Assembly (NCBI RefSeq): GCF_023822025.1
Contig: NZ_CP082909.1
Span: 3,276,001-3,340,000 of the forward strand
Direction of reading: 5' to 3'
Length of the DNA stretch: 64,000 bases
Source of the DNA: Endozoicomonas sp. 4G
Lineage (GTDB): Bacteria; Pseudomonadota; Gammaproteobacteria; Pseudomonadales; Endozoicomonadaceae
Below are positions 15,202 to 53,901 of the stretch, one piece after another. The notes under the pieces are model-generated. The model was not told where the DNA came from, searched no databases, and was given only the letters and a program-made list of their open reading frames with translations. Position numbers and translations under genes: made by a program. Numbering within the stretch: the stretch's first letter is position 1; each line of letters starts with the position of its first letter.

Positions 15202-16686
15202 TCAGGCTGTTGCTGTTTCTGCCTGATTTCCCTCTACAGGGTGCATCAGTCTGTTCAGCTTAGGCGCGGTCACAAACATCAGCAGAGCAACCACCGCCGA
15301 AATCAGCCCCATGGTTTCAAAGAAATGACTGTAGACCGGCAGAGTATCCAGTGCGGTCGCTGACTGACCAGAATCCACAGCGGTTAAGCCCGCCACATAA
15401 CCTGCCAAGACAGAAGCTGCTGAAGTCGTCAGGAACCAGGCTCCCATTATGAAGCCATGCATACGTGAAGGTACCAGCATAGCCACCATCGCCAGACCAA
15501 GACCACTGATCAGCAACTCTCCCAGTGCCTGAACCAGATAAGAACCGACAATCCAGCCCGGAGCCACCAGCCCCTCAGCGCTGGCAAACTTAGCGGCCAG
15601 AGGAATCAGCAGGAAGCTCGCTGATGTCAGAGCCATACCCAGGGCAAACTTGGCTGGCATGCTCATGGCTTTACCGGTCACACCACTGCGGTTGTAGAGG
15701 TAAGCCAGAATCGGGCTGGCTACCATGATCCAGAATGGGTTAAGTGACTGGAAGGAAATCGGGTTAATGTCAAAACCAAAAACAGTATGCTCAACATTAT
15801 GAATAGTGAAGAAATTCAAAGAGGTCGGCATCTGGTAGTACATCACCCAGAAGACAATCGCTTCCAGCATCAACACCAGGGCGACAATCATCTTGCCACG
15901 CTCAACACCGGTAGAAGCCAGAATCTCCCTCAGGAAGATTAATACCACACCGCTACCGACAATCGCCAACAGGATATTAGCAATAACCAGATGGTTCAGG
16001 ATAAAGGCACAGGCAAAACAGGCAGCAATAGCACTGACAAAAACCAGCCCAAACTTCCTATAGTCCAGAGGTTTAAAGTCAGGTTCAGAGCCATAATCAG
16101 CGACCCAGTGACGAATGATGAAATAGTTAGCCAGAGCCACGAACAGACCCAGCGCGCTGACCATGAAGCCTACGCTCCAGCCAAAATGATCCGCCACATA
16201 AGGTACGCTCAGCAGAGAAATGAAGGAACCTATATTGATCGCCATGTAGTACATGGTAAAGGCGCCGCTCAGACGACTGTCGCCTTCTTTATAACACTTG
16301 GCCAGAAGGCTGGAAGGATTGGCTTTGAACAGCCCATTACCCACGGCAACAGTACCCAGGGCAAGGTATACCATCTGGATGTCTTCGCCTGCTGTGGCCA
16401 TGATGGCATAACCGGCCATCAACATCAGAGCCCCGAACACGATAGTCCGCTTGGTACCCAGTACCTTGTCTCCCAGAAAGCCACCTACTGCCACCAGACC
16501 GTAGACAAGGGCGTTGAAAGAACCGAAGATAATAAAGGATTCAGACTCCGAAACACCCAGTTCACGAACCAGATAGACGGCCAGGATGGCCTGAAGTCCG
16601 TAGTAACCAAAACGTTCCCATAGCTCAAGAAAAAAGATCAGATAAAACGGTCTGGGCTGTTTCAGTACGTTCAAAGATTGCGACAT
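15202..16686 (-). CDS. Proton-dependent oligopeptide transporter (POT/PTR2 family)
   Basis: A 494-residue inner-membrane MFS carrier of about 14 helices. The PTR2 signature ELWERFGYYGLQAIL is near residue 21, followed by the AxYLV helix-1 end, a GSFNALVYGL helix and the second signature region around MYYMAINIGSF. Such carriers import di- and tripeptides with protons. It is closest in layout to the DtpA/DtpB group. It is monocistronic, with a 400-base upstream region. Confidence 0.9.
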   Translation of the reverse strand: MSQSLNVLKQPRPFYLIFFLELWERFGYYGLQAILAVYLVRELGVSESESFIIFGSFNALVYGLVAVGGFLGDKVLGTKRTIVFGALMLMAGYAIMATAGEDIQMVYLALGTVAVGNGLFKANPSSLLAKCYKEGDSRLSGAFTMYYMAINIGSFISLLSVPYVADHFGWSVGFMVSALGLFVALANYFIIRHWVADYGSEPDFKPLDYRKFGLVFVSAIAACFACAFILNHLVIANILLAIVGSGVVLIFLREILASTGVERGKMIVALVLMLEAIVFWVMYYQMPTSLNFFTIHNVEHTVFGFDINPISFQSLNPFWIMVASPILAYLYNRSGVTGKAMSMPAKFALGMALTSASFLLIPLAAKFASAEGLVAPGWIVGSYLVQALGELLISGLGLAMVAMLVPSRMHGFIMGAWFLTTSAASVLAGYVAGLTAVDSGQSATALDTLPVYSHFFETMGLISAVVALLMFVTAPKLNRLMHPVEGNQAETATA

Positions 16687-17004
16687 ATAAAATCTATCCC
16701 CTTGTTCCGATGCTCGACAGTGAATGACCGTATCCCTGGTATTGCTCGATCTTCCTGAACTTGAGAAGCCTTCCAGACATAAGCCGACAGACTTCAGGCG
16801 GGGGAGATTTCAATAAGTTTATAGAAACATTCTTTGTTATTTATAAGCTTATTGAGAACTCTCCCTTTGATTTTTTGATGGATCAGCAAAAAAACCTTTT
16901 TCATTAAGTCTTATTAAGAATCGTTCCAACACCTGTAATTTGCACAGGCTGATAAGGGGATACCGATACACGACAAAGTTATAAAACCTAAATATGAGTG
17001 CTGA
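16687..17004. promoter_or_regulatory. Upstream region of the POT transporter gene
   Basis: About 320 bases without a gene; AT-rich between 16805 and 16930 (TTTATAGAAACATTC, TTATTTATAAGC). It should contain the transporter promoter on the minus strand; no specific operator is recognised. Its right end abuts the rlmKL remnant at 17005. Confidence 0.3.
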
Positions 17005-17058
17005 TTACTTTTTCATGACCTTCCAGTTTCGATGAATACCTTTTCGTCGCTGGAAACC
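17005..17058 (-). pseudogene. Terminal remnant of a second rlmKL copy
   Basis: The minus strand encodes GFQRRKGIHRNWKVMKK followed by TAA, differing at 3 of 17 residues from the true RlmKL end (DFQRRKGIHRSWKIMKK, 19023-19073). Nucleotide identity over about 60 bases is about 83%, and most differences are synonymous third-position transitions. It therefore diverged as a functional gene before being orphaned, more likely in another lineage than by recent local duplication. It marks the distal end of the cassette array. Confidence 0.8.
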
Positions 17059-17102
17059 ACAACAGCCATAAAGCCATAAGCCAACCAAACACTGTTCCGC
17101 TG

Positions 17103-17624
17103 TCAATCCTGGAAATTATCCCGGAAATTGTCGTGTCTGCATTTACCACCTGAACCGGCCACATTCTGACCCACAACGAGCATTACATCATTGGTATATC
17201 CGTAATGATCAAAGGGGCACTGCAATATATTGGTAGGATCATATTTAGTCTCAGCCCGGGGCCCACGGGATTCAGATAATGGCATATGCCATCTAACGAC
17301 AGCGGTCGCCTTGGGCGGGGTATCCCGGGATATGACGATATCCTGATATCGCGGTACGTATTCATTGGAACAGACTGAAAATACGGAAGCAATGTAATGG
17401 AGGCCAAGTTTGCTGATGTTTAAGTAATATGGTGGCATTGAGTCAGTCGCTGGAGAGTATACCCCGTACATGCAATGGCTGTCTTTCCCAGCCTTGAAAG
17501 AGTAGGACACGTTATGGTCGGAATCATAGTTTCTTATAAAATAAATATCCCGATCCAGTGCGTGAACACTTCCGAATGCGAGCGCAAGAATCGTTGATCC
17601 TGCCAGTCTGGAAATCAGCTTCAT
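17103..17624 (-). CDS. Small secreted four-cysteine protein, tandem copy 1
   Basis: A 173-residue protein with a signal peptide cleaved after SVHA (residue 22). The mature part begins LDRDIYFIRNYDSD and carries four cysteines conserved in all three copies (CMYGVY, C before the RYQDIVISRD block, LQC, C near the end), suggesting two disulfides. No known domain is recognised. This copy has an altered end, NFRD duplicated as NFRDNFQD, and lacks the CDDCDP motif of copies 2 and 3. Exact repeats of the signal peptide and promoter side suggest the copies are expressed alike. Confidence 0.75.
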   Translation of the reverse strand: MKLISRLAGSTILALAFGSVHALDRDIYFIRNYDSDHNVSYSFKAGKDSHCMYGVYSPATDSMPPYYLNISKLGLHYIASVFSVCSNEYVPRYQDIVISRDTPPKATAVVRWHMPLSESRGPRAETKYDPTNILQCPFDHYGYTNDVMLVVGQNVAGSGGKCRHDNFRDNFQD

Positions 17625-17712
17625 ACTTCTTACCTACTAACTTTTTACCTACTGATTGGAGTTAGAAAAAGTGAGTCGCAATCAATGGTTTGATGAGTGA
17701 TCTCTTCCGCTG
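17625..17712. repeat. Inter-cassette spacer with rlmKL-derived fragments (1/2)
   Basis: Read on the minus strand after gene copy 2, this spacer encodes EEITHQTIDCD, matching RlmKL VEEITHQTIDRD, and then a TFSNS-like stretch (CTTTTTCTAACTCC) matching RlmKL PTFSNS, before the SD and start of copy 1. In RlmKL those two segments lie in the opposite order, so the spacer is the junction of two tandem units. Confidence 0.75.
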
Positions 17713-18222
17713 TCAATCCCGGAAATTGTTGTGTGTGCAGCTATTAACTGAACCGGGCAAATCCCGGCCCACAACGAGCATTACATCACTGGTATATCCG
17801 TAACGATCATTGGCACACTGTAATATCTTGGCAGGATCTGATCTAGTCTCAACCCAGGGATCACAATCGTCACATACTGGCATGTGCCATCTAACGACAG
17901 TGGTCGCCTTGGGCGGGGTATCCCGGGATATGACGATATCCTGATATCGCGGTTTATCGCCAATGTCACATTTCGAAAATATGACAGCCTTGTAATGGAG
18001 GCCAAGTTTGCTGATGTTTAAGTAACCTGGCGGCATTGAGTCAGTCATTGGAGCATATACCCCGTACATGCAAGAGCTATCTGACCCAGCCTTGAAAGAG
18101 TAGGACGCGCCCAAGTCAGAATCATAATTTCTTATAAAATAAATATCCCGATCCAGTGCGTGAACACTTCCGAACGCGAGCGCAAGAATCGTTGACCCTG
18201 CTAGTCTGGAAATCAGCTTCAT
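17713..18222 (-). CDS. Small secreted four-cysteine protein, tandem copy 2
   Basis: A 169-residue paralogue of the flanking genes. The signal peptide is identical to that of copy 1. The mature protein keeps the DIVISRDTPPKAT core but differs in short clusters: after IRNYDSD, around FSKCDIGDKPRY and in VCDDCDPWVETRSD. It ends CTHNNFRD, where NNFR coincides with the NNFRKFRLDD segment of RlmKL. The start is set by SD sequence AGGTAAGAAGT just upstream. Function is unknown; export to the periplasm or beyond is expected. Confidence 0.75.
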   Translation of the reverse strand: MKLISRLAGSTILALAFGSVHALDRDIYFIRNYDSDLGASYSFKAGSDSSCMYGVYAPMTDSMPPGYLNISKLGLHYKAVIFSKCDIGDKPRYQDIVISRDTPPKATTVVRWHMPVCDDCDPWVETRSDPAKILQCANDRYGYTSDVMLVVGRDLPGSVNSCTHNNFRD

Positions 18223-18310
18223 ACTTCTTACCTACTAACTTCTTACCTACTGATTGGAGTTAGAAAAAGTGAGTCGCAACCAATGGTTTGATGAGTGATA
18301 TCTTCCGCCG
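18223..18310. repeat. Inter-cassette spacer with rlmKL-derived fragments (2/2)
   Basis: Nearly identical to 17625-17712. The minus strand reads EDITHQTIGCD, a decayed form of RlmKL EEITHQTIDRD, then the TFSNS-like stretch and the SD of copy 2. The two spacers share substitutions against rlmKL, so they arose by duplication of one already diverged unit. Confidence 0.75.
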
Positions 18311-18823
18311 TCAATCCCGGAAATTGTTGTGTCTGCAGCTACCACCGGAACCGGGCACATTCTCACCCACAACAAGCATTACATCAGTGCTATTTCCGTA
18401 ATGATCAAAGGAACACTGCAATATATTGACAGGATCAGATTTAGTCTCAGCCCAAGGGTCACAATCGTCACTTATTGGCATGTGCCATCTAACGACAGCG
18501 GTCGCCTTGGGCGGCGGGGTATCCCGGGATATGACGATATCCTGATATCGCGGTAAATCGCCATCGCCACATTTTGTAAATATGGCATTCATATAATGAA
18601 GGCCAAGCTTGCTGATGTTTAAGTAATAAGGTGGCATTGAGTCAGTCCCTGGAGAGTATACCCCGTACATGCAAGAGCTGTCTGACCCAGCTTTGAAGGA
18701 GTAGGACATGCTATGGTCAGAATCATAGTTTCTTATAAAATAAATATATTGATCCAGTGCGTGAACACTTCCGAACGCGAGCGCAAGAATCGTTGACCCT
18801 GCTAGTCTGGAAATCAGCTTCAT
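18311..18823 (-). CDS. Small secreted four-cysteine protein, tandem copy 3
   Basis: From ATG 18823 (AGGTGAG upstream) the product has 170 residues; a GTG nine bases earlier is in frame but overlaps the ribosome-binding site. Signal peptide as in the other copies, cleavage after SVHA. It has one extra Pro (TPPPKAT) and a distinctive FTKCGDGDLPRY loop. Starts of the three genes are spaced 601 and 598 bases apart, showing ~600-base tandem units. This copy is nearest the intact rlmKL and is preceded by the rlmKL remnant at 18908-18991. Confidence 0.75.
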   Translation of the reverse strand: MKLISRLAGSTILALAFGSVHALDQYIYFIRNYDSDHSMSYSFKAGSDSSCMYGVYSPGTDSMPPYYLNISKLGLHYMNAIFTKCGDGDLPRYQDIVISRDTPPPKATAVVRWHMPISDDCDPWAETKSDPVNILQCSFDHYGNSTDVMLVVGENVPGSGGSCRHNNFRD

Positions 18824-18907
18824 ACTTCTCACCTACTGATGTCAACCAGGCAGACAGGGCATGAGACCTCATACCCTGTTGTCGCCCTAGCGGAAATTAT
18901 AGCTCTG

Positions 18908-18991
18908 ATTGACTACCAAGCTAATTAACCTGAAGTGATCGTTCTGAACATCAAAAAACCCTTTCAATTTCCTGGAGTTGGAAAAAGTAGG
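18908..18991 (-). pseudogene. Internal remnant of a second rlmKL copy (RlmK motif IV region)
   Basis: The minus strand encodes 28 in-frame codons beginning PTFSNSRKLKGFFDVQ and continuing NDHFRLISLVV. They align to RlmKL PTFSNSKKLKGVFDVQKDHYRLIALAV with 6 conservative changes in 27 residues. It lies between the stop of the intact rlmKL and secreted-gene copy 3. With the fragments at 17005-17058 and in the spacers it is a piece of one decayed rlmKL 3' end, interrupted by the secreted-protein genes. Confidence 0.8.
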
Positions 18992-19019
18992 ATAACCAAT
19001 ACCTGAAGCTCAGTACCGA

Positions 19020-21206
19020 TTATTTCTTCATAATCTTCCAGCTTCGATGAATACCTTTTCGCCGTTGAAAATCACGGTCAATGGTTTGATGCGTAATTTC
19101 TTCCACAAGAAATTCTGACTCAACGCAATCATCCAACCTGAACTTTCGGAAATTATTAGAAAAATAGAGAGTACCACCTTCAGACAGTCTTTTGACTGCC
19201 AGTGCAATTAACCGGTAATGGTCTTTTTGAACATCAAAAACCCCTTTTAGCTTCTTGGAGTTGGAAAAAGTAGGGGGATCCATAAAAATCAGCTCATACT
19301 CGCTGGTGTCTTTTTCCAGCCATTTCAGGCAATCCTCCCGCTCCAACCGGTGTCGGCGCTCACTCAGGCCGTTCAGGGCCAGATTCTTTTTACCCCAATC
19401 CAGGTAAGTGTTAGACAGATCGACACTGGTAGACGACACAGCCCCACCCATGGCGGCATGAACCGTCGCGGTAGCGGTATAACAGAACAGATTAAGGAAG
19501 CGCTTGCCTACCGCTTCCTGCTGGAGTCTCATTCGCATCAGGCGATGATCCAGAAACAGGCCGGTATCGAGATAATCATGCAGATTCACCAGTAAACGAC
19601 ATCCGCCCTCTTTGATTTCCATCATCTGTTTCTGTTCGTCCTGCCGGACATACTGACTCGAACCTGATTGCCGCTGGCGTCGTTTCAGGACAATATTTTC
19701 ATCCGGTATATTGAGCACCTCAGGCGTCACTGCCAGCGCCTCTATTAACCGCTCCTGAGCTTTTTCTTCACTAATGGATTTAGGGGCTGCGTATTCCTGA
19801 ACATGCACCCAGTCACGATAAACATCGACGGCTACAGCGTATTCCGGCATGTCGGCATCGTAGAGGCGATAGCAGTCAATGTGGTTTTTTCTGGCCCACT
19901 TGCTCATCTGCCTGAGATTTTTTTTCAGGCGATTGGCAAACATGGTGGCCCCTTCGGAGATATAGGTAACCGTTCTGGTCTCTGATGAATGGCTTTCCTG
20001 CTTTTCTGAAACAGCCTCCCTCGCTTCGCGGCTGCGAATATCATAAAGAAAGAGCTTACAGGGCAGCGCACCGTTAAAGAGTGAATAACTCTTTTTTGGT
20101 CCCATTCCGAGATTTTTCACCAAACTGGCTGTACCAGTAAAAATGCCTGCTTCCCAGCCCGGACAATTCTGCTTCAGTTTTTCACCCAGATGTTTGTAGA
20201 GATAGACCAGGCTGGCTTCATCCCCCATACGTTCACCGTAGGGTGGATTACAAACCACCAACCCGGTGTCTACGTCAGAATCCATGGCCAGATCCTTGAG
20301 TTCCTGCTGTCGTATCTTAACCCTTCTGGCCAGCCCGACCCTTTCAAGGTTGGATTGGGCACGACGGGCAACAGAACCCAGGCCTTCAAAGCCAATAATG
20401 TCCGAGTTCATGGCAGCCAGCCCCTGTTGACGACGCTCTCTGGCTTCCTCCAGCACGCTCATCCATACCTTTGGCACATGCCCTATCCAGCGATCAAAGC
20501 CAAAGCGGGCCCGAAGCAGGCCGGGGGCAATGTCCGCCGCCATCATGGCCCCTTCGATCAACAGCGTGCCAGCACCGCACATGGGGTCCATTAAGGGTTT
20601 ACCCCGAGCCGCCATTTCAGGCCAGCCCGCTCTTATCAGAATGGCGGCCGCCAGATTTTCCTTCAGAGGCGCTTCACCGGATTCCTGACGATAACCCCGC
20701 TGATGCAAACTCTGACCTGACAGGTCAATGGATACAAAAGCAGTTTTTCCCCTGGCATGAACATTGATTCGTATATCGGGGTTAGAGGCGCTCACGGACG
20801 GTCGCCAGCCATGCTCATCTCTTAACTGATCAACGATGGCGTCTTTAACGACCTGGGCACCGAATCGGGTGTGATTAATATCGGGCGTGGAACCGGTGAA
20901 ATCGACCCGGAAGCTGCCCTGACGGTCGAGATGATCATCCCATTCAAAGGTTCTGACACCCTGATAAAGATCGTCTTTGTTCTCGGATCGAATCTCACCC
21001 AGCCGTAGCAGAATCCGGCTTGCCAGCCTCGACCAGAGACAACTGCGATAAGCCACTTCAAGACGACCCTTGAAGCTCACTCCAGCGACAGTTTCCTGAA
21101 CCGATTCTGCACCCAAATCCTTTAACTCCCGGGCCAGCAATATTTCCAGCCCCTTGGGGCAGCTGGCAAAGAGTTCCAGAGAACGCTCAGCAAGAGGCGT
21201 ATTCAT
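19020..21206 (-). CDS. rlmKL: Bifunctional 23S rRNA methyltransferase RlmKL
   Basis: A 728-residue fusion that makes m2G2445 (RlmL half) and m7G2069 (RlmK half) in 23S rRNA. Order: N-terminal ferredoxin-like plus THUMP domain (about 1-160), RlmL methyltransferase with the catalytic NPPYGERMG motif near residue 320, then the RlmK methyltransferase with FMDPPTFSNS near residue 645. The frame is intact and the length usual (E. coli 702). The 3' end is the source or homologue of the rlmKL fragments found downstream. Its 5' neighbour is the divergent rmf gene. Confidence 0.95.
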   Translation of the reverse strand: MNTPLAERSLELFASCPKGLEILLARELKDLGAESVQETVAGVSFKGRLEVAYRSCLWSRLASRILLRLGEIRSENKDDLYQGVRTFEWDDHLDRQGSFRVDFTGSTPDINHTRFGAQVVKDAIVDQLRDEHGWRPSVSASNPDIRINVHARGKTAFVSIDLSGQSLHQRGYRQESGEAPLKENLAAAILIRAGWPEMAARGKPLMDPMCGAGTLLIEGAMMAADIAPGLLRARFGFDRWIGHVPKVWMSVLEEARERRQQGLAAMNSDIIGFEGLGSVARRAQSNLERVGLARRVKIRQQELKDLAMDSDVDTGLVVCNPPYGERMGDEASLVYLYKHLGEKLKQNCPGWEAGIFTGTASLVKNLGMGPKKSYSLFNGALPCKLFLYDIRSREAREAVSEKQESHSSETRTVTYISEGATMFANRLKKNLRQMSKWARKNHIDCYRLYDADMPEYAVAVDVYRDWVHVQEYAAPKSISEEKAQERLIEALAVTPEVLNIPDENIVLKRRQRQSGSSQYVRQDEQKQMMEIKEGGCRLLVNLHDYLDTGLFLDHRLMRMRLQQEAVGKRFLNLFCYTATATVHAAMGGAVSSTSVDLSNTYLDWGKKNLALNGLSERRHRLEREDCLKWLEKDTSEYELIFMDPPTFSNSKKLKGVFDVQKDHYRLIALAVKRLSEGGTLYFSNNFRKFRLDDCVESEFLVEEITHQTIDRDFQRRKGIHRSWKIMKK

Positions 21207-21477
21207 AACCTATATTCCAATATCATTTAAAAACCCAATAATTAATTAAGATTGATTTCTCGACAGCCTGATCAAACTTGGTTAGAACTTAAAACGTAGA
21301 CTCTCCCTGTATGTTGGCTCTCTGGTTTTTTCCCTGCCCTCTGTTTAGCGATAACTTTAGCGATAACAGGGGCACCCGGAGCGGTAACAACGAACCGGAT
21401 CAGGGAATCTTCCAAGTGCTGTAACAGGGTGCCAGGGAGGCGTTGGTAAACGAATCAGCAAGAGGCAGTACCACATG

Positions 21478-48105: not shown

Positions 48106-48201
48106 ATCCTCTTACCCTCATCTGTAAATAGGAAAGGATGATACTACCAAATCGCCGCAAGCGAAAAACGCAGTCTGCACTGCCCCATCGGAAAAAATAC
48201 C

Positions 48202-49767
48202 ATGAGCCAGACACCTCCTCTGCCGAATGATCCAGATCATAACAGTCGGATGGACCGATTCCTTAATACCGTTGAGCGAATTGGTGACAAACTTCCCGAG
48301 CCTGCGTTGATATTTCTTTACGGAATGATCATTGTCTGGCTCTGTTCAGCGGTTCTGTCGCAATTTCACTTTGATGTCATTCATCCCATTAAAGGCCATC
48401 CCATTGGTATCAACAATTTACTGACCGGCGAAGCCATGGCCAAATTTTTGTCCACCATGGTGAAAAACTTTACCGATTTTGCTCCTCTAGGCATTATTCT
48501 GGTCGCCATGCTGGGCGTGGGTGTAGCGGAAAAATCAGGCTTTATTAATACCGGCCTGAAAAAGCTGCTTAGGCAAACACCCGACAAGTTACTGACTCCG
48601 GTGCTGGTTGTTGTTGCCATACTGAGTCACGTGGCTTCTAATGCTGGCTATGTATTGGTTATTCCCCTGGGAGGCATTATTTTTCATGCCGCAGGCCGTC
48701 ACCCTCTGGCCGGCATTGTCACTGCTTTTGCCGGCGTTTCCGGAACCTATTCGGCTTGCTTTGTGCCCACCAGTACCGACCCGCTTTTACAGGCTTTCAC
48801 CCAATCTGCCGCCCAGACTTTTGATCCTGACTATAAGGTGAATCCGCTCTGTAATTATTTCTTTACAGCGTCATCGTGCGTATTGCTGGTGCTGGTGATT
48901 TGGTTTGTTACCGACAAGATCGTGGAGCCCCGACTCAAATGGCATGCTCCTATCGATCACGATATTGAAAAAGCCACAGATATGAGGAGCTATACCTCTC
49001 TGGAAAGCAAAGCTTTTAAAATAGCCTGCCTCGCCTTGTTCGCAGGCCTGTTGTTGCTGGCCTTTTTTATATTTCCGAAAGATTCACCTATGCGTTCGCC
49101 TGATGGAGACCTGACTACTCTGGACGCCCCCCTGATGGAATCCATCGTACCCCTGATTTTCCTGATCTTTGTGGTACCGGGTATTGTTTATGGATTAGTG
49201 GCAGGTACTTTTGAAAAAGCCAAAGATGTTATTAGCGCCATGGGTGAGACGATATCGAAAATATCAAGTTACATGATAATGGCCTTTTTCTGCTCCCAGT
49301 TCCTGGCCTCTTTTGATGACTCTAACCTGGGAACTCTACTGGCACTAAGCAGTGCAGGGGCGCTTAAAGCCCTGAACTTGTCAGGGCAGTTCACCATCGT
49401 TCTCATGATTCTTCTCACCGCTACTATCAATGTTCTGATCAGCTCGGCTTCTGCCAAATGGGCTATGATTGCCCCCATTCTGGTCCCTATGCTGATGGCT
49501 GTTGGTATTGCGCCTGAGCTAGCTCAGGCGGCCTATCGTGTGGGCGACTCAGCCACCGACACTATCTCACCCCTGATGAATTTCTTTCCGTTAATGGTCG
49601 TTTATTGCCAACGTTATGTTAAAGATACCGGCATTGGCAGCCTGGCTTCATTGATGGTTCCTTACTGTATCTATATGCTGCTTTTCTGGTCTGTTTACCT
49701 GCTGATTTACTGGGTTCTGGACCTGCCGCTGGGTATCCAGGGACATTACGGATACCCTCCGCATTAA
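48202..49767 (+). CDS. AbgT-family transporter, paralogue 1
   Basis: A 521-residue inner-membrane protein with 9-11 hydrophobic helices. The family pattern shows in DRFLNTVERIGDKLPEPALIFLYG, GVGVAEKSGFINTGLKKLL and a C-terminal RVGDSATDTISPLMNFFPL segment (substrate and ion site). AbgT proteins transport p-aminobenzoyl-glutamate or export sulfonamides, energised by H+ or Na+. The N-terminal 25 residues are nearly identical to the second copy 2.3 kb downstream. The gene diverges from yeaC. Confidence 0.92.
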   Translation: MSQTPPLPNDPDHNSRMDRFLNTVERIGDKLPEPALIFLYGMIIVWLCSAVLSQFHFDVIHPIKGHPIGINNLLTGEAMAKFLSTMVKNFTDFAPLGIILVAMLGVGVAEKSGFINTGLKKLLRQTPDKLLTPVLVVVAILSHVASNAGYVLVIPLGGIIFHAAGRHPLAGIVTAFAGVSGTYSACFVPTSTDPLLQAFTQSAAQTFDPDYKVNPLCNYFFTASSCVLLVLVIWFVTDKIVEPRLKWHAPIDHDIEKATDMRSYTSLESKAFKIACLALFAGLLLLAFFIFPKDSPMRSPDGDLTTLDAPLMESIVPLIFLIFVVPGIVYGLVAGTFEKAKDVISAMGETISKISSYMIMAFFCSQFLASFDDSNLGTLLALSSAGALKALNLSGQFTIVLMILLTATINVLISSASAKWAMIAPILVPMLMAVGIAPELAQAAYRVGDSATDTISPLMNFFPLMVVYCQRYVKDTGIGSLASLMVPYCIYMLLFWSVYLLIYWVLDLPLGIQGHYGYPPH

Positions 49768-49803
49768 AAGGAACTACAGGGGACAGGCACTGGGCATTAA
49801 ATC

Positions 49804-50337: not shown

Positions 50338-50545
50338 GACGCATTACCCTATCTGAGAGTTATCGTTTATTAATGAGACTCTCAGCATAGGCGAAAGATA
50401 AGATCTGTGGCGCTTGAACAGGCTGCTAGAATGAATACTCAACAGCCATCAGGTGGATCAATCTCAGCCTGCACCCCGCTCATTTTTGTCTATCATTGAT
50501 CTTCCTGTCTGGTTGAGCCCCTTTCACTCAAGCTGTTGAAATACC

Positions 50546-52111
50546 ATGAGCCAGACACCCCCCCTGCCAAATGATCCAGACCATAACAGCTGGATGGACC
50601 GGTTCCTTAACACTGTTGAGCGAGTTGGTAACAAACTTCCCGATCCTGCATTGATGTTCTTCTATGGCATGATCATTGTGTGGATCTGTTCCGCTGTTCT
50701 GGCGCAATTCCACATTGAAATGATTCATCCCACTACGGGCCAGACCATTGCCGTCAACAATTTATTGACCGGCAATGCGATGGCCAACGCCCTGTCCACG
50801 ATGGTGAATAACTTTACCCATTTTGCTCCCCTTGGCATTGTTCTTGTCGCCATGTTGGGCGTGGGTGTGTCGGAAAAGTCAGGCTTTATTAACACCGGTC
50901 TGAAAAAACTACTCAGAGTCACACACACAAAGCTGCTGACCCCGATACTGGTCGTCGTTGCCATACTGAGCCATCTGGCTGCCGATGCAGGCTACGTGTT
51001 GGTTATTCCCCTGGGAGGGATTATTTTTCATGCCGCTGGCCGACACCCTCTGGCCGGCATTGTCACTGCCTTTGCGGGTGTGTCGGGAGGTTTTTCGGCT
51101 TGTTTTGTACCTACAGGAACCGACCCACTTTTGCAGGGTTTTACCCAATCGGCCGCTCAGATTTTTGACCCTGATTATCAGGTGAATCCACTGTGCAACT
51201 ACTTCTTCACAGCAGCATCGAGCCTGTTGGTGGTTCTGGTGGTCTGGTTTATTACCGACAAAATAGTAGAGCCCCGTCTGGACTGGCATGTACCTGTTGA
51301 TCACGACGCTGATGAAGCGACCGATATGGGCAGCTACACCAAGCTGGAGAGCAAGGCTTTCAAACTGGCCAGCCTTGCCATGTTTGTGGGTCTGTTATTA
51401 CTGGCTCTCTATATTTTCCCGGAGGATTCACCCATGCGTTCGCCGGATGGAGAACTGACCAGTCTGGCTGCCCCCCTGATGAAGTCTATTGTCCCCCTGA
51501 TTTTCCTGATCTTTGTGTTGCCGGGCATTGTTTACGGATTAGTGGCCGGCACCTACGAAAATGCTAAAGATGTTATTAATGCCATGGGGGAAACCATGTC
51601 AGACATGGGGTCTTATATGGTGATGTCCTTTTTCTGTGCCCAGTTTCTGGCTTCTTTTGATGACTCCAACCTGGGAACTCTGCTGGCGCTGAGCGGTGCA
51701 GAGGTGCTTGAGGCCATGAACCTGTCAGGACAGGTCACCATTATTTTTATGATTCTTTTGACCGCTATCATCAATCTTCTGATCGGCTCGGCTTCCGCCA
51801 AATGGGCTCTGATTGGCCCGATCCTGATTCCCATACTGATGGCGGTCGGTATTGCCCCTGAGCTGACCCAGGCGGCTTATCGTGTAGGAGACTCAGTCTC
51901 CAATATTATCTCCCCCCTGATGGTCTTCTTCCCCCTGATTGTTGTCTATTGCCAGCGTTATGTTAAAGATACCGGCATTGGCAGTCTGGCCTCGTTGATG
52001 ATGCCTTACTCTCTGAGCTTGCTGGTGCTTTGGTCTGTTTTTCTGCTGATTTACTGGGCTCTGGGCCTGCCACTGGGTATCCAGGGACATTATGTCTACC
52101 CTCCGCATTAA
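50546..52111 (+). CDS. AbgT-family transporter, paralogue 2
   Basis: A 521-residue near-copy of the transporter at 48202-49767, with the same ends (MSQTPPLPNDPDHN and HYVYPPH against HYGYPPH). Substitutions are spread over the protein, often conservative, with many synonymous changes, so it is an old duplication rather than a recent one. Differences cluster in the second half of TM regions and in the linker after EPRL. No frameshift is seen, so both copies are probably functional and may differ in substrate. Confidence 0.92.
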   Translation: MSQTPPLPNDPDHNSWMDRFLNTVERVGNKLPDPALMFFYGMIIVWICSAVLAQFHIEMIHPTTGQTIAVNNLLTGNAMANALSTMVNNFTHFAPLGIVLVAMLGVGVSEKSGFINTGLKKLLRVTHTKLLTPILVVVAILSHLAADAGYVLVIPLGGIIFHAAGRHPLAGIVTAFAGVSGGFSACFVPTGTDPLLQGFTQSAAQIFDPDYQVNPLCNYFFTAASSLLVVLVVWFITDKIVEPRLDWHVPVDHDADEATDMGSYTKLESKAFKLASLAMFVGLLLLALYIFPEDSPMRSPDGELTSLAAPLMKSIVPLIFLIFVLPGIVYGLVAGTYENAKDVINAMGETMSDMGSYMVMSFFCAQFLASFDDSNLGTLLALSGAEVLEAMNLSGQVTIIFMILLTAIINLLIGSASAKWALIGPILIPILMAVGIAPELTQAAYRVGDSVSNIISPLMVFFPLIVVYCQRYVKDTGIGSLASLMMPYSLSLLVLWSVFLLIYWALGLPLGIQGHYVYPPH

Positions 52112-52277
52112 ACGGAATTACAGGGAAATAGGTCGCGGCTATGTCTCAAAGGGAACTCACGCCTCTGCAGCCACTCTAATTAATCAGTGTGATGACCGTG
52201 CGCTTTCCTTAAGCCGGTCTATGCTGCACTAGTGTTAAAAGACATGGATTATAAAATTCAATATCTAAGAGGCTGTA

Positions 52278-52478: not shown

Positions 52479-52493
52479 TTTCGGAAGGAAATA

Positions 52494-52569
52494 TGGCATC
52501 CCGTAGGGGACTCGAACCCCTGTTACTGCCGTGAAAGGGCAGTGTCCTAGGCCACTAGACGAACGGGAC
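52494..52569 (-). tRNA. tRNA-Glu(UUC)
   Basis: 76 bases with encoded CCA. The anticodon loop CTTTCAC gives UUC; the T-arm GGTTCGAGTCC is intact. Last member of the array. Confidence 0.97.
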
Positions 52570-52612
52570 ACAATCTTTTGTGTCTGTATGCGTTTGCATA
52601 CAGCCTTTGATC

Positions 52613-52688
<76 letters not shown>

Positions 52689-52720
52689 AATGAAGATGAT
52701 TTGGGACTTCTTCGAAGTCC

Positions 52721-52805
52721 GGAGCGGGAAACGAGACTCACTCTCTAACTCTGAGGCGACCCCAACCTTGGCAAGGTTGTGCTCTACCAAATGAGCTATT
52801 CCCGC
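52721..52805 (-). pseudogene. Rearranged tRNA-Gly(GCC) pseudogene
   Basis: The acceptor, D-arm and anticodon arm are those of tRNA-Gly(GCC), but the T-arm is destroyed: the normal GCGAGTTCGAGTCTCG is replaced by about 10 extra bases (CTCAGAGTTAGAGAGTGAG core). The D-loop has AGTTGG changed to ATTTGG and the 3' end reads CCG, not CCA. A functional T-loop cannot form, so it is not expected to be charged. It lies in the array between two intact units. Confidence 0.9.
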
Positions 52806-52842
52806 AATGAAGATAATTTGGGACTTCTTCAAAGTCTTAAAA

Positions 52843-52918
52843 TGGCATCCCGTAGGGGACTCGAACCCCTGTTACTGCCGTGAAAGGGCAGTGTCCTAGG
52901 CCACTAGACGAACGGGAC
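52843..52918 (-). tRNA. tRNA-Glu(UUC)
   Basis: Sequence identical to the other Glu copies; CCA encoded. Confidence 0.97.
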
Positions 52919-52961
52919 ACAATCTTTTGTGTCTGTATACGTTTGCATACAGCCTTTGATC

Positions 52962-53037
<76 letters not shown>

Positions 53038-53074
53038 AGTGAAGATATTTAGTGACTTCTTCAAGGTCTTAAAA

Positions 53075-53150
53075 TGGCATCCCGTAGGGGACTCGAACCC
53101 CTGTTACTGCCGTGAAAGGGCAGTGTCCTAGGCCACTAGACGAACGGGAC
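53075..53150 (-). tRNA. tRNA-Glu(UUC)
   Basis: Identical Glu copy; CCA encoded. Followed upstream by the spacer to tRNA-Ala. Confidence 0.97.
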
Positions 53151-53198
53151 ACATTATCTTGATAACACGATCTTAATAAAACCAAGAAAGTGTAATAT

Positions 53199-53274
53199 TG
53201 GTGGAGCTAAGCGGGATCGAACCGCTGACCTCAACACTGCCAGTGTTGCGCTCTCCCAGCTGAGCTATAGCCCC
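53199..53274 (-). tRNA. tRNA-Ala(GGC)
   Basis: 76 bases with CCA. The anticodon loop CTGGCAG gives GGC; the T-arm GCGGTTCGATCCCGC is intact. Confidence 0.97.
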
Positions 53275-53279
53275 AAAAT

Positions 53280-53355
53280 TGGCATCCCGTAGGGGACTCG
53301 AACCCCTGTTACTGCCGTGAAAGGGCAGTGTCCTAGGCCACTAGACGAACGGGAC
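53280..53355 (-). tRNA. tRNA-Glu(UUC)
   Basis: Identical Glu copy, only five bases from the upstream-side tRNA-Ala gene. Confidence 0.97.
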
Positions 53356-53398
53356 ACAATCTTTTGTGTCAGTATGCTTTTGCATACAGCCTTTAATC

Positions 53399-53474
<76 letters not shown>

Positions 53475-53506
53475 AGTGAAGATAATTTAGGACTTCTTCA
53501 AAGTCC

Positions 53507-53523
53507 GGAGCGGGAAACGAGAC
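53507..53523 (-). pseudogene. 3' fragment of a tRNA-Gly gene
   Basis: Only the 3' acceptor and T-arm edge (GTCTCGTTTCCCGCTCC in the minus sense) remain; it ends in CCG rather than CCA, like the pseudogene at 52721-52805. The flank GACTTTG on the minus strand is also shared with that pseudogene, so both derive from the same damaged unit. Confidence 0.8.
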
Positions 53524-53629
53524 CCACCTCCCATTTAATCAATCCATTCAACGATGAACTGAGCGACGCAGTTTAATGACTTATCCGGTCATGAAAATCA
53601 GTAAAAATACTACTCACTGACTTTGAAGA

Positions 53630-53705
53630 TGGCATCCCGTAGGGGACTCGAACCCCTGTTACTGCCGTGAAAGGGCAGTGTCCTAGGCCACTAGACGAAC
53701 GGGAC
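53630..53705 (-). tRNA. tRNA-Glu(UUC)
   Basis: Identical Glu copy. It forms the first Ala-Glu pair with the tRNA at 53754. Confidence 0.97.
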
Positions 53706-53753
53706 ACACTATCTTGATAACACCATCTTAATAAAACCAAGAAGGTGTAATAT

Positions 53754-53829
53754 TGGTGGAGCTAAGCGGGATCGAACCGCTGACCTCAACACTGCCAGTG
53801 TTGCGCTCTCCCAGCTGAGCTATAGCCCC
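53754..53829 (-). tRNA. tRNA-Ala(GGC), first gene of the array
   Basis: Identical to the Ala copy at 53199. It is nearest the promoter at 53902-53930. Confidence 0.97.
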
Positions 53830-53901
53830 AAAACCTTTAATCGCTCCGGCTTGCCCTTCTCTTTCCGAGAAGTTGTTTGGCTGCCCCGAAACGCAGGGCG
53901 A

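Follow-up and report, generated by a model that had tools for sequence, protein, structure and literature searches.

The window analyzed here is a 64,000-nucleotide stretch of the genome of Endozoicomonas sp. 4G (label G000; 6.0 Mb, single contig), corresponding to G000:C1:3276001-3340000. It contains an intact rlmKL gene and, downstream of it, three small paralogous genes with which a decayed second copy of the rlmKL 3' end is interleaved. Past the rlmKL stop codon, the order is a remnant of codons 645 to 672, which starts 28 nt beyond the stop, the short repeat ATAATTTCCG, a palindrome, gene 1, a spacer, gene 2, a second spacer, gene 3, a tail remnant of rlmKL, and a transporter gene (Table 1). 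Comparisons within the genus used 10 Endozoicomonas genomes, G000 among them; the others are given by label (G001, G002, G005, G008, and G009) where they need to be told apart.

Table 1. Features of the rlmKL junction in window coordinates
Feature	Position	Strand	Remarks
rlmKL remnant, codons 645-672	18909..18991	-	81% nt identity, blastn
rlmKL remnant, codons 711-728 plus stop plus 22 nt of downstream flank	16983..17060	-	blastn; continuous with the G001 empty-site flank
rlmKL remnant, codons 702-709 (EEITHQTI), first spacer	18281..18306	-	blastn
rlmKL remnant, codons 702-709, second spacer	17682..17708	-	blastn
Probable rlmKL remnant, PTFSNS codons, first spacer	18254..18270	-	16/17 nt, E 0.58
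Probable rlmKL remnant, PTFSNS codons, second spacer	17656..17672	-	16/17 nt, E 0.58
Gene copy 1, 170 aa, ATG at 18823, ends NNFRD	18311..18823	-	signal-peptide-like start by eye
Gene copy 2, 169 aa, ATG at 18222	17713..18222	-	paralogue of copy 1
Gene copy 3, 173 aa, ATG at 17624, ends HDNFRDNFQD	17103..17624	-	paralogue
Native NNFR codons of rlmKL (AATAATTTCCG), join sequence of the insert in the second copy	19147..19157	-	motif counts
Short repeat ATAATTTCCG, upstream side of the insert	18891..18900	-	motif counts
Imperfect palindrome GGGCATGAGACCTCATACCC, upstream of gene 1	18857..18876	.	motif search; variant upstream of the distant fourth copy
Intact rlmKL, 728 aa, 23S rRNA methyltransferase RlmK/L	19020..21206	-	Pfam RlmL_1st, THUMP, UPF0020, Methyltrans_SAM
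POT/PTR2 transporter	15202..16686	-	Pfam; directly follows rlmKL in empty-site G001

Self-similarity was determined by self-blastn. The remnant of codons 645 to 672 matches rlmKL positions 19192 to 19274 at 67 of 83 nt (E = 7.6e-15), and the tail remnant matches 18998 to 19075 at 62 of 78 nt (E = 3.9e-12), both E values being for the whole 64-kb window. The tail extends 22 nt beyond the rlmKL stop and is longer than the piece at 17005 to 17058 reported in a first-pass annotation made from the sequence. Both spacers carry the same rlmKL scrap, an EEITHQTI piece and a weaker PTFSNS piece. In a 7.5-kb search, the EEITHQTI piece of the second spacer aligned with rlmKL 19078 to 19104 at 24 of 27 nt (E = 0.001), and that of the first spacer with the same target at 23 of 26 nt (E = 0.004); the PTFSNS pieces both match 19255 to 19271, matches that are weak alone, and the spacers duplicate each other. 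The first-pass annotation had described pieces of an rlmKL 3' end lying in order on the same strand, and this is confirmed, with slight shifts in coordinates and one extra short piece per spacer. Chance similarity or an assembly artifact is scarcely credible: the fragments do resemble rlmKL, at the E values given, the same kind of structure occurs in two further genomes, and nothing was found in favor of such an origin.

The three genes form paralogous units arranged head to tail and in register, with starts 601 and 598 nt apart, as first described. Copy 2 shares 80% identity with copy 1 and 75% with copy 3. Four cysteines are invariant across the four aligned members of the family, and individual copies carry additional cysteines. 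The three N termini look signal-peptide-like by eye but were not flagged by a crude signal-peptide script, which was also applied to other genes. The proteins are probably secreted, and the initial description of secreted four-cysteine proteins holds for the invariant cysteines and, by eye, for the N termini. A Pfam scan, which covered the three genes and not the small open reading frames (ORFs) around them, gave no family above the cut-off and no recombinase domain among the three, and a PDB profile search with the protein gave nothing meaningful (best E value, 0.16). Besides the three genes, the listed ORFs between the transporter and rlmKL reach at most 75 aa, and none is the size of a transposase.

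The insert meets the second rlmKL copy at the NNFR codons, into which each of the three genes runs. The sequence AAYAATTTCCG occurs three times in 64 kb (native rlmKL and the ends of genes 1 and 2) against 0.10 expected, and AYAATTTYCG occurs six times against 0.39 expected, five of them at this locus (native rlmKL, upstream of gene 1, and the ends of genes 1 to 3); since both patterns were drawn from these sites, the expectations are post hoc. The coincidence between the NNFRD ends of the small proteins and the NNFRK of RlmKL, pointed out at first pass, is therefore real at the DNA level, with all three AAYAATTTCCG sites at this locus, and the insert is flanked by two copies of an ∼10-bp sequence that forms part of rlmKL. 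The last residues of the protein may be rlmKL derived, or the gene may already have had this sequence and joined through it.

A fourth G000 copy of the gene lies at a second locus (G000:C1:2303662-2305842), between moxR-like and stomatin-like genes (both named by eye), and the gene is present at just these two loci of the genome. This copy sits inside a tandem duplicate of a unit comprising a different small gene with a signal-peptide-like start and part of the moxR-like gene. It too carries an rlmKL scrap, which extends beyond the AYAATTTYCG repeat. A transposon-like unit that inserted site specifically at AYAATTTYCG, with a target duplication of ∼10 bp, could account for the direct repeat at the joints, for the presence of a unit at a second locus, and for a palindrome near one end that, in G000, is confined to the two gene-bearing loci. 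We consider such a mobile element improbable: the interval holds no transposase-sized ORF besides the three genes, no inverted repeat is listed at the insert ends, the reach of the distant scrap past the repeat speaks against a repeat-to-repeat move, and the genome has the unit at only two loci. The palindrome was also considered as a dispersed repeat of the repetitive extragenic palindrome (REP) type, an idea that was rejected; in a search of G000, GGGTATGAGGCCTCATACCC (up to 3 mismatches) was found at only two places, both beside the gene. An attC-like site after each gene was not found either: in G000 the palindrome precedes only copy 1 and the distant copy, and positions 16600 to 21300 gave no Rfam match.

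The same junction was compared in relatives. Whereas rlmKL is matched over its full length in all 10 genus genomes, the small gene is held by three of them, with four copies in all in G000 and one each in G008 and G009. At the rlmKL junction itself, G001 has no copy, G008 and G009 have one each, and G000 has three, which is the copy-number variation at the rlmKL 3' flank that had been predicted. G001 represents the empty site, with ∼285 nt between rlmKL and the transporter. The remnant tails of G000 and G008 can be aligned with this G001 flank, which makes the distal tail the part joined to ancestral flanking DNA. G009 has a longer remnant (from codon ∼629) and an unrelated 315-aa ORF between rlmKL and the gene; this ORF has a signal-peptide-like start by eye and no Pfam match. 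Fragments of the rlmKL 3' end were found in 4 of 37 family genomes searched (G000, G008, G009, and G002), 32 of which had any match. The prediction that different genes would occupy the same position likewise held, given the second, unrelated signal-like gene of G009 and a different family of 27 paralogues in G002.

Decay of the remnants was scored as differences from each genome's own rlmKL in synonymous versus nonsynonymous codons. For the fragment plus the tail, the counts were 13:12 in G000, 6:16 in G008, and 8:24 in G009, the last with single-base gaps; the short spacer pieces of G000 gave 2:1 and 3:0. Pooled over the six long remnants of the three genomes, there are 27 synonymous and 52 nonsynonymous-codon differences. 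The pooled remnant decays like a pseudogene, without coding constraint, while the G000 pieces alone (13:12) are ambiguous. These counts do not bear out the proposal that the last piece changed mainly synonymously, since the G000 tail shows 5 synonymous and 4 nonsynonymous differences and the orthologous tails show 3:11 (G008) and 1:10 (G009). Nor, with that pooled ratio and the gaps in G009, do they favor the proposed divergence of the second copy as a functional gene.

Divergence was estimated with our own Nei-Gojobori script. Synonymous divergence (dS) is 0.18 to 0.20 among the three window copies, 0.25 to 0.41 between G000 copies and those of G008 or G009, and 0.46 to 0.61 for rlmKL among the three genomes. 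The ratio of nonsynonymous to synonymous divergence (dN/dS) is 0.60 to 0.96 among G000 copies, versus 0.26 to 0.57 for comparisons with or between G008 and G009. Judged by these values, the array either is younger than the species split or has been homogenized, and its copies diverge fast.

An array of another family follows rlmKL in G002. There, rlmKL lies at 523967-526120, and 27 close homologues lie within C1 ∼405293-523586, an array of ∼118 kb; each is at least 94% identical to a 400-aa N-terminal query where the two match, and one has internal stops. The one member scanned carries a RING domain and ankyrin repeats (Pfam), the two last members were flagged for signal peptides by the script, and the array ends in two other signal-peptide-flagged genes and lolC. 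Twenty-one rlmKL fragments accompany the genes, 20 in spacers (133 to 212 nt) and a shorter one (53 nt) following the last gene, at 88 to 95% identity to the native sequence. In 14 of the 20, the sequence resumes 226 nt beyond the native stop, and in the other 6 it does so at 242 to 244 nt, common points which indicate that the units share a deletion of the rlmKL end. The fragments match G002's own rlmKL at 67 to 88% of residues and the window rlmKL at 48 to 63%, and because of this better match to the local gene we read the event as independent. Three identical-looking 419-aa ORFs, which from a familiar motif we take to be IS110-like transposases, lie near the far end of the array.

Persistence in 20 spacers might suggest that the rlmKL fragments are retained as functional elements, serving as a promoter, terminator, or recombination site of the array. 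This is very improbable, as their extent differs between G000, G009, and G002, the decay pattern argues against it, predicted promoters (3 versus 5.0 in shuffled sequences) and terminators (2 versus 2.2) are not enriched, and the Rfam result above was negative.

The rlmKL junction does not stand out among its neighbors, contrary to what had been proposed. A hand count covered 19 junctions between 20 conserved neighbors in G000, G008, and G009; the difference exceeds 1 kb at six of them and is ∼1 kb at a seventh (a partly aligned ORF), so that 6 or 7 of the 19 vary by ∼1 kb or more; the rlmKL junction is among the variable ones. Partial gene copies were sought more widely, within 8 kb, in 100 pieces of 20 kb (60 from G000, 20 from G009, and 20 from G005, with 747, 226, and 271 ORFs of at least 150 aa, respectively). 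Matches had to reach at least 30 nt, 75% identity, and an E value of 1e-5. Counts are genes per class, and genes more than half duplicated nearby were dropped, so whole-gene arrays lie outside them. An earlier, looser pass (297 and 489 ORFs), which took in the window, gave more weak matches.

The 3' end was copied downstream for eight genes (four in G000, three in G009, and one in G005), one of them presumably a transposase by its motif. The 5' end was copied upstream for two (0, 1, and 1, in the same order of genomes), one of which we take, again from a motif, to be a pilin paralogue. The 3' end was copied upstream for six genes and the 5' end downstream for six (5, 1, and 0 in each case), and internal parts were copied upstream for 9 (7, 1, and 1) and downstream for 10 (6, 3, and 1). 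In G000, the signal-peptide script flagged all five genes of the 3'-upstream class and all five of the 5'-downstream class, and left three of the four 3'-downstream genes unflagged. From these counts and flags, 3'-downstream copying is not the commonest class over all genes, and a 3' bias is confined to neighboring nonsecreted genes. In the Escherichia coli MG1655 control (16 pieces of 20 kb scanned of 8 × 50 kb), 0 of 228 ORFs fell into any end class and 4 had internal copies; the difference from Endozoicomonas is small in numbers.

The 3'-downstream cases concern ribA, a GST-like gene, a MATE transporter, and an epimerase in G000, pepN and an ABC ATPase in G009, and a MarC gene in G005. At G000:C1:111141-113811, a copy of the ribA 3' end (40 nt, 97.5%) stands downstream of a C2H2 zinc-finger gene with a signal peptide, and a scrap from the 3' end of the zinc-finger gene itself lies in between. 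By eye, ∼15 nt of native flank is kept; blastn matched neither flank. The GST 3'-end copy sits between two signal-flagged paralogues; by eye, the same flank comes next and the second paralogue after it, the mark of a plain tandem duplication. In G008 and G009, a different gene neighbors GST. The MATE 3' end is copied twice beside signal-flagged zinc-finger genes (G000:C1:1101140-1109420), and one of the two copies is followed by native flank (by eye), again the mark of plain tandem duplication. The zinc-finger family is the same at ribA and MATE, each time with the local gene's end. In G009, pepN is followed by at least six paralogues (MDQI...) without flagged signal peptides, with two copies of the pepN 3' region inside the array (G009:C1:4781707-4792233). 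For the epimerase and MarC genes, two of the seven nontransposase cases, the intervals hold other kinds of genes and no secreted-looking paralogue array.

Taken together, we think it probable that a lineage-specific gene, which probably encodes a secreted protein, forms a small tandem array here and that scraps of the gene upstream were passively duplicated along with it, through local duplication, one insertion, and amplification. The structure, the copy-number variation, the pooled decay pattern, and the parallel sites are observed; the order of events, their mechanism, secretion, and selection are inferred. The rlmKL 3' end would have been duplicated beside the intact gene in the ancestor of G000, G008, and G009. 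The secreted-protein gene would then have joined the redundant copy at its NNFR codons, apparently by recombination or end joining at the ∼10-bp AYAATTTYCG, which in G000 now stands on both sides of the insert, and the redundant copy would have decayed. After the split from G008 and G009, a G000 unit whose two ends lie within the remnant (PTFSNS piece, gene, EEITHQTI piece) would have been tandemly triplicated, and one unit with its rlmKL scrap would have reached the locus beside the moxR-like gene. The array was presumably kept since extra, diverging secreted proteins are useful to a host-associated bacterium, the rlmKL scraps being hitchhikers.

Several observations weigh against this account. 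The tail piece is 3' of the gene and continues into the ancestral flank, so that a simple duplication of the 3' end plus the gene is insufficient, and an insertion or a Campbell-type integration must be added. A tree of the six gene copies resolved none of its three inner branches; amplification after the split is thus argued from dS, a signal that gene conversion could mimic, and the lower dS of the orthologous genes relative to rlmKL would also fit gene exchange between lineages. Over at least 25 nt, a very short stretch, the G008 remnant tail equals the native end of G009 and differs from G008's own native end, as a model with a restoring end predicts; this suggests a mosaic tail in G008 and G009, although the stretch is too short to decide the matter. 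The bias of 8 to 2 between 3'-downstream and 5'-upstream copies of neighboring genes is not by itself required by random tandem duplication. A simple explanation of that bias may be that a useful duplicate must include the promoter of the amplified gene, so that its left breakpoint tends to fall into the end of the upstream gene. Finally, the distal ribA copy is followed by DNA that matches no relative, a site that simple tandem duplication does not explain, and the second MATE copy has a different flank.

Some of these points would suit a 3'-anchored cassette capture, in which a secreted-protein gene travels with a copy of a housekeeping 3' end, integrates by homologous recombination, restores the frame, and leaves the displaced old end downstream. 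The continuity of the remnant tail with the ancestral flank fits this, as do the variation in gene number and type at the rlmKL 3' end (G000, G008, G009, and G002), the 3'-end copies at ribA, GST, MATE, and pepN, the mosaic tails, and the gene dS below that of rlmKL between species. We nevertheless regard it as unlikely. At GST and for one of the two MATE copies, the sequence reads as an ordinary tandem duplication, one zinc-finger family occurs at ribA and MATE with a local rather than a traveling end, the three genes have no recombinase domain, the rlmKL junction is not unusually variable, and the tail region is too short to decide. A chromosomal capture device, as first proposed, is not needed, given the tandem duplications at GST and MATE, the lack of a recombinase domain in the three genes, and the restriction of the palindrome to two gene-bearing G000 loci. 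Of the original model of a cassette recombined into rlmKL, the rlmKL similarity and the variation among relatives are supported; the working second copy, the special site, and the need for a capture device are not. The cassette may or may not have brought a restoring copy of the rlmKL end with it. A capture system, for which no machinery was seen in the interval, is possible but not needed; passive amplification, with a single insertion into the redundant end of rlmKL, accounts for the data better.

Some genomic islands integrate at the 3' ends of genes or tRNAs and restore the end. As in such islands, a gene-end copy lies here on the far side of the insert, continuous with the old flank; unlike in them, no integrase is seen in the interval, the pieces are decayed and internal, the unit is a single gene, and the joint repeat is only ∼10 bp. 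Integrons and superintegrons store small genes in a row in variable numbers. The present array shares these traits but has no repeated site that we found after each gene, and its copies are paralogues rather than diverse cassettes. A closer parallel is found in part of a report on Candidatus Ichthyocystis (PMC4943182), which describes tandem families of putative effectors with pseudogenes of enolase (13), thioredoxin reductase (5), and 23S rRNA methyltransferase (2), intact copies lying elsewhere, and attributes them to amplification; one family has a single copy in one species and three in another. Amplified genes with hitchhiking housekeeping pseudogenes, a 23S rRNA methyltransferase included, are thus common to both cases, and on this part of the report the kind of process is already known. 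Unlike Endozoicomonas, Candidatus Ichthyocystis is a betaproteobacterium, and that part describes neither fragments as 3' ends nor an insertion inside a duplicated gene end. A literature search, with preprints outside its scope, gave no paper on gene-end copies beside secreted genes in Endozoicomonas, and a word search of the main text of a 2025 family review found "duplicat," "tandem," and "paralog" absent.

Other repeats were seen along the way. Three G000 pieces (L074, L084, and L085) hold dense tandem arrays of repeat genes; the members that were read have signal-peptide-like starts by eye, with C2H2-like repeats in L074 and L084 (below the Pfam cut-off in L074) and a RING domain in L085 (above it). 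In the window, two 1.6-kb direct repeats (48195-49781 and 50539-52125; 81%) comprise a pair of 521-aa genes, and a complex repeat region lies at 52489-53833.

The decayed gene end among the small genes is real and more widespread than the window alone reveals, and the rlmKL junction has been used twice independently by unrelated families, in one case for the 27-gene, ∼118-kb array. A bolder proposal, to which we give little credence, is that housekeeping 3' ends (rlmKL, ribA, pepN, and others) act in Endozoicomonas as homology anchors for transposase-free exchange of secreted effector genes, the cassette restoring the frame and leaving the old end downstream, so that strains store different genes at the same anchors. 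If gene 3' ends were indeed recombination anchors and not bystanders, they would offer a machinery-free route for shuffling effector repertoires. As it stands, the finding mostly extends a known process to another bacterial group, in which scraps of neighboring genes mark duplication breakpoints and leave a readable fossil record of how secreted-looking and eukaryote-like proteins have multiplied in a group of marine symbionts.

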